In this document: positions 31,883 to 37,234 of the stretch, piece after piece
Numbering within the stretch: position 1 is the stretch's first letter
How the letters are laid out: each line of letters begins with the position of its first letter
Source of the DNA: Candidatus Poseidoniales archaeon
Lineage (GTDB): Archaea; Thermoplasmatota; Poseidoniia; Poseidoniales; Poseidoniaceae
Direction: 5' to 3'
Assembly (NCBI GenBank): GCA_003602635.1
Contig: QQSJ01000054.1
Location: 1-37,234 of the forward strand
DNA length: 37,234 bases
Notes under the pieces: model-generated
Database searches by the model: none
Told to the model about the DNA's origin: nothing
Seen by the model: only the letters and a program-made list of their open reading frames with translations
Program-made: the position numbers and the translations under genes

Positions 31883-33472
31883 TCAGTCGCCCCGGGCCGA
31901 AATCACCTGGTCGATTCGAAGCAAGCCGCACACGGCTTCCGTGGCGACTTCGATGGCGTGTTCCAACGTCTCCGCGTTCGCCCATGCCGCGTCAATGGGG
32001 CCGTTGGCTCCCGCGGCCGTGACGCCGTTGTCGCTGCTTCCGGCTCGGTGCGCAGCCCGTAGGTCGAGAAGCACGTCGAGCCGGTTCCCGCCCGCGTTCT
32101 CGATGAGCGATCCTGGAACGGCTTCGAGGGCGCGAGCGTAGGCCTCCATCGCCAACCTGCGTCGGCCTGTGGCTGCTTCTGCTGATGCTCGAACCGCCGA
32201 TGCTGCGGCAATGTGGAGGCTTCCCCCACCGAGCAGCAGGCGACCAGAGCTCATGGCCCCAATGACCGAACGCAACGCATCGAAAAGGCCGCGGATGACC
32301 TCCTCGGTCGCGGTACCGGCGCTTCCCGCCACATCAATGCAGGCCAGCCTGCTGTTCGCGTGTTCGAAGATCAGGCGCTCTCGCCGCCCTTCGTCCCCTT
32401 CGAGCGTCTCGACGGAAAAGCGATCCAAACGGCCCAAGGCTTCGGGGGTGAGGTCGTCAAGATGCTCGCACAACGTGGCCCCGGTGACTTTTGCAAGGTC
32501 CTCTGCACCGTCGCGTTCGAGGTCCGCGAGCACGACGCAACCTGCGTCCACGAGACGATGCAACACACGGGTTTCGACCTCCTTGGCGCAGATCACCAAA
32601 CGTGCCCCAGAAGCAAGCACGGCCTCCGCGTGGGCGTCGAGAAGGGCGTCTTCTGCGGCCATGAAAGATTCGAGTTGATCGACGTCGTTGACTTCAATCT
32701 CCGTCTCTCTGACACCTTTTTGCAGCGCCAACGGTCGCGTCAAGACGGCGACTTTGACGTCTTCCAATCGGCGAGCCTGACGGTCGAGGGAAAGGCGCTG
32801 GTCAAGGATCAACCCTGAGATGAGGCGGCTCTGGCCCAGGTCGCCTGCACCGCGCTTGGCCATTCGGATGCGCTCGTACGACAAGGGGTCGCCGTCGGCG
32901 GTTCGTTGGACGAGCATGGCGGCGTCCACCACCAGAGAGGCAAGGGCTGCACCACCGGCTTCAGCGCTCGTGCCCGTCATCGCGGTGAGGGCCACGTCGG
33001 CCCAACGGGACGTGTCGGCATCCGCTGCATCCACGCTTCGTGCTTCGGCGGTGGAGAGGGTGATGCCTGCGGCTTCGCGGTACCCTTCCACAAGCGTGAG
33101 AGGGTGAAGGCTACGTTCCAGCAGGCGACCGCCTTCCCGCATCAGCTCTGCTGCGAAAATCAGGCAGCCGGTGACACCGTCGCCGCAAGCGTTCTCCTGC
33201 GTTTCGGCCATGGACACGAAGGTCTTGGCAGCGGGGTGCTTGACCATCAGGTCGGCCACGATACGGGCACCGTCGTTGGTGACCGCGGTTTCCCCGTTGG
33301 ATTTGTACAACATCTTGTCCAGCCCGTTGGGCCCAAAGGTGCCTCGAATCAGGTCACCAAAAGCCACTGCTGCCCGGACAAGTTTCTGCGTCACGGCCAC
33401 GCCACTGGTGACGTTGGTCGTCGGACGAACGATGACGACGGGGGCGCGGCCACCGCTTTCCTCTCCGTCCAT
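31883..33472 (-). CDS. Group II chaperonin (thermosome/CCT family), divergent
   Basis: DLIRGTFGPNGLDKMLYKSNGETAVTNDGARIVADLMVKHPAAKTFVSMAETQENACGDGVTG...RIDQVISARGD. Starts at ATG 33472, 33499 or upstream TTG are possible. Confidence 0.9.
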   Translation of the reverse strand: MDGEESGGRAPVVIVRPTTNVTSGVAVTQKLVRAAVAFGDLIRGTFGPNGLDKMLYKSNGETAVTNDGARIVADLMVKHPAAKTFVSMAETQENACGDGVTGCLIFAAELMREGGRLLERSLHPLTLVEGYREAAGITLSTAEARSVDAADADTSRWADVALTAMTGTSAEAGGAALASLVVDAAMLVQRTADGDPLSYERIRMAKRGAGDLGQSRLISGLILDQRLSLDRQARRLEDVKVAVLTRPLALQKGVRETEIEVNDVDQLESFMAAEDALLDAHAEAVLASGARLVICAKEVETRVLHRLVDAGCVVLADLERDGAEDLAKVTGATLCEHLDDLTPEALGRLDRFSVETLEGDEGRRERLIFEHANSRLACIDVAGSAGTATEEVIRGLFDALRSVIGAMSSGRLLLGGGSLHIAAASAVRASAEAATGRRRLAMEAYARALEAVPGSLIENAGGNRLDVLLDLRAAHRAGSSDNGVTAAGANGPIDAAWANAETLEHAIEVATEAVCGLLRIDQVISARGD

Positions 33473-33516
33473 CGCGCGCCGGTCTGAGCACGCCCTCATG
33501 AATCCTGCCTCGGGCC

Positions 33517-33756
33517 TCAACCTGCGGATTCAGCCTCGTTGAGGGCCGCAAGGGTGGCGTCAAGCACCGCTTGGAGGTCCCGAAGCGAGGGGGCAACAAC
33601 GTGCACCACCAAGGCTTCGCCGTCAACGCTCGCGTTGACGCCGTCCATGCCGTCGACGGCCGTCTGCAACGCTGCTCGACCCTCCAAGCGGAGGTCGATG
33701 GACACCGGCTCCATGCGCGGACGTGGCGCCCCTTGCTCATCACCATGACGGCTCAT
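33517..33756 (-). CDS. KEOPS complex subunit Pcc1-like protein
   Basis: MEPVSIDLRLEGRAALQTAVDGMDGVNASVDGEALVVHVVAPSLRDLQAVLDATLAALNEAE: size and pattern of archaeal Pcc1. Confidence 0.65.
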   Translation of the reverse strand: MSRHGDEQGAPRPRMEPVSIDLRLEGRAALQTAVDGMDGVNASVDGEALVVHVVAPSLRDLQAVLDATLAALNEAESAG

Positions 33757-36044: not shown

Positions 36045-36151
36045 GCTGCGGCGTGGTGCCCGTCCGGATTGAACCTGCCGACGGTGGCAAGGCTGCGTGG
36101 GCCGCCGCCGCGATTCGTGGCATTGAAATACCACCCCGATTACGCAACCAT

Positions 36152-36169
36152 AAGTTCACTAGTGAACTT
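36152..36169. promoter_or_regulatory. Perfect 18-bp palindrome AAGTTCACTAGTGAACTT, candidate operator of groES-groEL
   Basis: Exact self-reverse-complement sequence, 13 bp upstream of the groES ATG, in the only promoter-sized gap before the operon. Confidence 0.7.
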
Positions 36170-36182
36170 GGAGTTGAACACC

Positions 36183-36452
36183 ATGAGCGTAGGCATTGAA
36201 CCGTTGGCAGCGATGGTCCTTCTCGAGATCGAGAAGGCCCCCGAAACGACCGCAGGAGGGCTTTTGCTCCCCGAAGAAGCACGCGACGCGATGAACGTCG
36301 GTCGTGTGTTGGCCGTTGGCCCTGACGCGGAGCACGTCGCTGAAGGTGACCGCGTCATTTACCGAAACTACTCAGGAACCACCATCGAATGGCTCGGCAT
36401 CGAATACCTCCTCATCAAGGAGGAAGACCTCCAAGCGAAGGTGACGAACTGA
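36183..36452 (+). CDS. groES: Co-chaperonin GroES (group I)
   Basis: MSVGIEPLAAMVLLEIEKAPETTAGGLLLPEEARDAMNVGRVLAVGPDAEHVAEGDRVIYRNYSGTTIEWLGIEYLLIKEEDLQAKV; mobile loop and roof pattern of Cpn10, immediately upstream of groEL. Confidence 0.92.
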   Translation: MSVGIEPLAAMVLLEIEKAPETTAGGLLLPEEARDAMNVGRVLAVGPDAEHVAEGDRVIYRNYSGTTIEWLGIEYLLIKEEDLQAKVTN

Positions 36453-36461
36453 GGTGAGATC

Positions 36462-37234
36462 ATGGCGAAGCAAATTGTGTACGGAGACGAAGCGCGAAAC
36501 AAGTTGGTCGAAGGCATCGACGCGGTGGCGAACGCGGTCAAGGTGACCCTTGGTCCAGCCGCCCGCACCGTGGTGCTGGAGAAATCCTGGGGCAGCCCGA
36601 CGATCATCAACGACGGCGTGACCATCGCCAAGGACATCGAACTCGAAGACGCTTTTGCGAACATGGGCGCCAAGCTCATCCAAGAAGTGGCCTCGAAGAC
36701 CCAAGACAACGCCGGTGACGGTACGTCCACGGCCTCCGTGATGACCCAAGCCCTCGTGCACCAAGGCATGCGCAACGTGACCGCAGGCGCCAGCCCCGTG
36801 GCCCTCAAGTCCGGCTTCGATGCGGCCATCACGGCCGTGGTGGAGCACCTCAAGGGCAGCGCCATCGAAGTGGACAGCGGCGACATGATCCGTCAAGTCG
36901 CGACCATCGCGGCCAACAACGACCCCGAGATCGGGGCGCTCATCGCCGAGGCCTTCGACAAGGTCGGACGCGAAGGCGTCATCACCGTCGAGGACTCGAA
37001 GTCCATGGAAACCGAACTCGAAGTCGTCGACGGCATGGAGTTCGACAAGGGCTACGTGTCCCCCTACATGGTGACCGACCAAGAGCGCCGCGAAGCGGTG
37101 CTCGAAGCGCCGCTCGTCCTGATGACCGACCAGAGCATCAACAGCACGCAGGAGCTCATTCCCGTGCTCGAGTACGCCATGCAACAGAAGCGCCCGCTGC
37201 TCATCGTCGCCAAGGACGTCGAGGGCCAAGCCCT
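36462..37234 (+). CDS. groEL: Chaperonin GroEL (group I), partial, runs off window end
   Basis: [93 protein letters not shown]...[34 protein letters not shown]. Confidence 0.97.

Follow-up and report, generated by a model that had tools for sequence, protein, structure and literature searches.

A conserved operator at the groES promoter of Marine Group II archaea and a predicted Phr/HSR1-type heat-shock regulon

The promoter of the groES-groEL operon analyzed here carries a conserved 23-bp operator, O1. It is highly likely, in our judgment, that a Phr/HSR1-family repressor that also controls its own gene blocks the groES start site at this promoter and is released on heat shock. The archaeon seems to exert its own heat-shock control over a chaperonin operon of a kind that is usually bacterial. 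The strength of the case is that the operator occupies the same position at functionally related genes and that the candidate regulator was identified independently. The original prediction that a heat-shock operator lies at the likely groES transcription start was supported, via O1 and not via the 18-bp palindrome that had been proposed as the operator unit.

The groES promoter and operator O1

The groES-groEL operon closes the window, i.e., the whole stretch of 37,234 bp that was analyzed. The relatives of this GroES belong to Candidatus Poseidoniales, Poseidoniaceae, and Thalassarchaeaceae, that is, to Marine Group II, for which genomes encoding both group I and group II chaperonins were reported earlier (PMC5332604). 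The promoter and the operon comprise the following features.

36123 to 36130, plus strand: conserved TATA-like box TTGAAATA, within the stretch TTGAAATAC (36123 to 36131)
36140 to 36162, plus strand: O1, the primary operator, TTACGCAACCATAAGTTCACTAG, with its core AAC-N5-GTT at 36146 to 36156
36150 to 36156, plus strand: predicted transcription start region
36152 to 36169, no strand: perfect 18-bp palindrome AAGTTCACTAGTGAACTT, read as the O1 right arm followed by the O2 left arm
36159 to 36181, plus strand: O2, a probable weaker tandem operator, CTAGTGAACTTGGAGTTGAACAC, 14.3 bits
36170 to 36173, plus strand: possible Shine-Dalgarno sequence GGAG, 9 bp before the ATG
36183 to 36452, plus strand: groES (89 residues), the target gene
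36462 to 37234, plus strand: groEL, encoding the group I chaperonin (GroEL TIGR02348, E value of 1e-112), second gene of the operon, which leaves the window

The weak TATA-like stretch noted earlier upstream of the palindrome was confirmed, and the transcription start region was deduced from its position and from the usual archaeal TATA-to-start distance. The start of the box and the start of the operator are separated by 16 to 18 bp in nearly all operator-bearing groES loci, so that O1 straddles the predicted groES start.

Alignment of groES promoters from Candidatus Poseidoniales (Marine Group II) revealed the 23-bp consensus (C/T)TA-N3-AAC-N5-GTT-N3-TAG. O1-type operators were present at 27 of 48 groES loci, related genomes in this and the other counts being nonindependent; all 27 scored at least 18.8 bits and the other 21 at most 0.4 bits, a bimodal distribution with no intermediate values. 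Scores were obtained with a matrix of 54 sites from the regulator and dnaK promoters, which contains no groES site and is partly nonblind, since its training sites were found with the consensus first noticed at groES. One of these sites (G011) was taken out of register; the correct site of that genome appears in the profile search described below. With this matrix, O1 scored 24.6 bits and the overlapping O2 scored 14.3 bits, whereas all other scores in the window were at most 8.9 bits; the best score over 100 shuffled windows was 15.6 bits. The earlier statement that there is no copy at the thermosome gene (31883 to 33520, minus strand) was thereby confirmed, and this gene was rejected as a regulon member, there being no operator for it in the window.

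Within the order, groES genes of this kind have a patchy distribution (49 of 319 genomes), and the absence of the operator at 21 of the 48 loci indicates that this control of groES is lineage specific. Many of the operator-less loci (n = 21; e.g., L033, L041 to L044, L047, and L050 to L059) have another promoter block in common, GTTTAAAATAGACC ... TGGAGATGAAC.

The 18-bp palindrome and a probable second site, O2

As originally described, AAGTTCACTAGTGAACTT is exactly self-complementary at 36152 to 36169 and is separated by 13 bp (36170 to 36182) from the groES ATG at 36183. Perfect palindromes of 18 bp or more occurred twice in the window (starting at 2679 and 36152), compared to a mean of 0.21 per window in 100 dinucleotide shuffles; as a bare palindrome, AAGTTCACTAGTGAACTT is only modestly rare. 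The other one occupies positions 2679 to 2696. With up to 3 mismatches allowed, no second copy of AAGTTCACTAGTGAACTT was detected in the window or in the source genome, which is 69% complete.

As originally proposed, the palindrome itself could serve a separate regulator specific to this lineage, a reading that agrees with its perfect symmetry in this species (9 of 9 pairs), with the symmetry of its inner 14 bp in L015, and with the 7, 7, and 6 of 9 pairs retained in three congeners. Farther out, only 3 to 5 of 9 pairs are symmetric while O1 is retained, the right half of the palindrome is poorly conserved in the aligned groES upstream regions, and the 69%-complete genome contains no further copy. 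The palindrome is also explained by two O1-type sites that have CTAG in common, O1 contributing its right arm and O2 its left arm to make up AAGTTCACTAGTGAACTT exactly. We therefore rejected the palindrome as the operator and regard a dedicated regulator for it as very improbable. Examination of relatives, proposed at the outset as a check, gave a divided answer, since the palindrome is largely not conserved and the overlapping operator is. The significance is carried by the conserved 23-bp operator overlapping the left half of the palindrome (36140 to 36162; core AAC-N5-GTT) and not by the 18-bp symmetry.

O1 and O2 overlap by CTAG, with 19 bp between their centers. O2 is identical at 17 of 23 positions to the TFB operator of the same genome and resembles the operator variant found elsewhere in the genus (TFB, CTATTGAACAAGGAGTTGAGAAG; Hsp20, CTATTGAACCACAAGTTCAGGAA). 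Its score was 15.8 bits in L015 and 8.6 bits in L017, and the site was lost in L016. Because O2 scores high in two species, lower in a third, and is missing from a fourth, and because it overlaps the possible Shine-Dalgarno sequence, we grade it as probably, but by no means surely, a second operator. Such probable tandem operators, found at groES within this genus, are new.

Predicted regulon

First pointers to dnaK and to a helix-turn-helix (HTH) gene came from a pattern search with two mismatches. This pattern was too loose, as a reversed control gave an approximately equal number of matches, and the assignments were decided by the profile and by where the sites lay with respect to start codons. 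Searched against 24 whole genomes, the profile recovered O1 and matched mainly the promoters of the dnaK operon, the regulator, groES, and TFB. In the source genome (G000), these promoters lie on the following contigs.

Contig C133: operon of the small-heat-shock-like (sHsp-like) gene and dnaK
Contig C48 (G000:C48:14368-15099, minus strand): candidate Phr/HSR1-family repressor gene, HTH type
Contig C63 (L230; G000:C63:3047-3949): operator-bearing TFB gene
Contig C97: groES

The operator was found before the sHsp-like/dnaK operon in 27 of 27 genomes and before the HTH regulator gene likewise in 27 of 27. At the regulator gene it lies 0 to 3 bp from the start in nearly all genomes, with an exact AAC-N5-GTT in 25 of 27 and an altered core in G007 and G013. 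At one TFB paralogue, all 15 gene copies, two of which come from one genome, have the operator at the start codon; none was found at the other TFB paralogue in the 10 cases checked. All three Marine Group II genomes in which an Hsp20 gene was found have an operator at this gene (27.0, 19.2, and 8.5 bits), and weaker Hsp20 sites occur in two sister-family genomes. The element is thus not unique to groES.

The sHsp-like open reading frame (L084:1535-2236) and its orthologues, which lie directly 5' of dnaK in Marine Group II, are unannotated and divergent in sequence, often with an acidic C-terminal tail ending in GGIPI. Comparison with Pfam gave no match, and the profile of this open reading frame matched the Hsp20 structure 4rzk (E value of 1.4e-4). 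In genome G184, a single operator (L092, G184:C13:5102-5124) lies between the divergent sHsp-like/dnaK and thermosome genes. Judged by distance, it would belong to the dnaK operon, and it might reach both the dnaK operon and the thermosome gene.

The conserved element might instead belong to the core promoter or the 5' leader (initiator or Shine-Dalgarno sequence) and involve no repressor, as it overlaps the predicted start, is close to the start codon, and, in the case of O2, overlaps GGAG. Against this explanation, near-identical 23-bp dyads occur at few promoters only, the other TFB paralogue and 21 groES loci lack the dyad, and the distance from TATA box to operator takes two values, approximately 17 bp at groES and the regulator versus approximately 25 bp at dnaK in this genus. 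We regard a core-promoter or leader origin as scarcely credible and retain the repressor site. Our literature search, which was not exhaustive, retrieved no earlier reports on heat-shock regulation in Marine Group II; the regulon content predicted from these operators, groES/EL, dnaK, and a TFB, is new.

The candidate regulator

The HTH regulator is essentially single copy throughout the order. Its best sequence match in the PDB was Phr of Pyrococcus furiosus (2p4w; profile E value of 1.9e-17), and 2p4w was again the best match of its predicted fold (pLDDT of 82), with approximately 20% identity in the structural alignment. These matches place the protein among the ArsR-like winged-helix proteins, with Phr as its nearest structurally characterized relative. 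The best NCBIfam match was Phr_regulator (NF053602), with 43 bits for a cutoff of 320, indicating a distant relative and not Phr itself. Phr and HSR1 are both members of arCOG01684 (PMC5852551). On the basis of the matches above, the Poseidoniales protein is best filed as a distant relative in the Phr/HSR1 family with its own operator variant. The original suggestion of an undescribed regulator is therefore probably incorrect, as the candidate is a winged-helix protein of the Phr/HSR1 type, encoded once in this genome and present across the order, with the same operator at its own gene. The site at its own promoter is the pattern expected for autoregulation, as the sites at Hsp20 and at the sHsp-like open reading frame are for sHsp control.

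Homologues of the regulator are present in many other families of Thermoplasmatota, and AAC-N5-GTT occurs within approximately 55 bp of the regulator start in 16 of 20 representatives (L154 to L173). Two orthologues without this core lie directly behind hsp20, in an array of a cdc48-like AAA+ gene, hsp20, and the regulator in L160, matching the genes associated with HSR1 in Archaeoglobus, and in an hsp20-regulator pair in L164. In Marine Group II, no linkage of the regulator to hsp20 or to a cdc48-type AAA+ gene was seen.

The match that followed Phr in the PDB was PF0095 (SurR), which leaves room for a member of the same protein family acting as an activator or sensing a signal other than heat, such as redox in the case of SurR. 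Such a role is very unlikely, as the predicted targets encode chaperones, a single TFB, and the regulator, the operator lies on the predicted start site, which is a repressor position, and hsp20 and cdc48 neighbors are found in distant relatives. A heat-responsive repressor remains the preferred interpretation.

Comparison with known systems

HSR1 of Archaeoglobus fulgidus recognizes the motif CTAAC-N5-GTTAG, is autoregulated, has hsp20 in its operon, and is released at high temperature (PMC9133787). The sites described here have in common with it the AAC-N5-GTT core with identical spacing, a site at the regulator's own gene, a dyad near the transcription start, and, in the distant orthologues L160 and L164, hsp20 and cdc48 partners. 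In contrast, the outer CT/AG adjoin the core in HSR1, whereas CTA/TAG are 3 bp away here; the regulator gene of Marine Group II lies apart from hsp20; and the predicted regulon extends to groES/EL, dnaK, and a TFB, HSR1 having been compared by description only. Phr occupies the start site, so that RNA polymerase cannot join the TBP/TFB complex, on an operator that comprises TTTA at -10, TGGTAA at the start, and AAAA at +10 (PMC9133787). Predicted autoregulation, an operator across the predicted start site, and predicted sHsp control are likenesses to Phr of P. furiosus (2p4w). Unlike in the Phr system, the TTTA, TGGTAA, and AAAA blocks are absent from O1, and the reported Phr regulon consists of the sHSP gene and an AAA+ ATPase, without a chaperonin.

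In bacteria, groES-groEL is controlled by HrcA through the inverted repeat CIRCE. The groES promoter analyzed here resembles this system in having an inverted repeat at groES-groEL and differs from it in that the candidate regulator comes from another family and the basal promoter is archaeal. CIRCE was rejected because TTAGCACTC-N9-GAGTGCTAA is absent from the promoter, in agreement with the original description of the element as unlike CIRCE.

Proposed mechanism

By analogy with Phr and HSR1, a repressor bound to O1, and probably also to O2, and released by heat is the most likely arrangement. We infer that the regulator binds O1, that binding represses, that heat relieves the repression, and that O2 is functional. 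At normal temperature, a repressor dimer would occupy O1 (36140 to 36162), straddling the predicted start behind the TATA box, and would bar RNA polymerase from the TBP/TFB complex; the second, weaker dimer site O2 (36159 to 36181) would probably lengthen the block downstream. Under heat stress, the repressor would be released, and expression of groES/EL would rise along with that of the sHsp-like/dnaK operon, Hsp20, one of the TFB paralogues, and the repressor's own gene.

A two-tier circuit in Marine Group II is a more tentative proposal, which we consider possible but on balance doubtful. One Phr/HSR1-family repressor would directly hold down the chaperones, including bacterial-type groES/EL, as well as a dedicated TFB paralogue, so that heat would free the chaperone promoters and shift the pool of basal initiation factors, and some uncultured marine viruses may share the operator.

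According to a 2022 review (PMC9133787), Phr and HSR1 were the only heat-shock regulators identified in archaea at that time. Our analysis adds to this family a predicted regulon in a marine order that is abundant and uncultured, and it extends the family, via orthologues that share the operator core, across much of Thermoplasmatota. The regulons of Phr and HSR1 are said to exclude the thermosome (PMC10653856); here, the predicted regulon contains the group I chaperonin and DnaK, and the thermosome of the window lies outside it. The data suggest how a chaperonin of bacterial type and patchy distribution can come under an archaeal control circuit, and in the predicted circuit one repressor governs a basal transcription factor as well as the chaperones.

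Operator-like sites in viral contigs

An extended form of the operator, CACTA-N2-CAACC-N3-GGTT-N3-TAGTG, was found in IMG/VR contigs L256, L258, L259, L260, L261, L262, L263, and L264, whereas an arm-swapped control pattern gave no match in this viral search. Scans for a viral groES or groEL with the operator gave no relatives. Several of the contigs are near-identical and the match in L255 is apparently inside a coding sequence, and the viral operator is therefore treated as a lead only. These sites may represent a host operator copied by the virus, or else a hairpin with no relation to it. In several viral contigs, the exact operator is located in noncoding DNA beside repeat arrays, and in several a large terminase gene lies not far from it.
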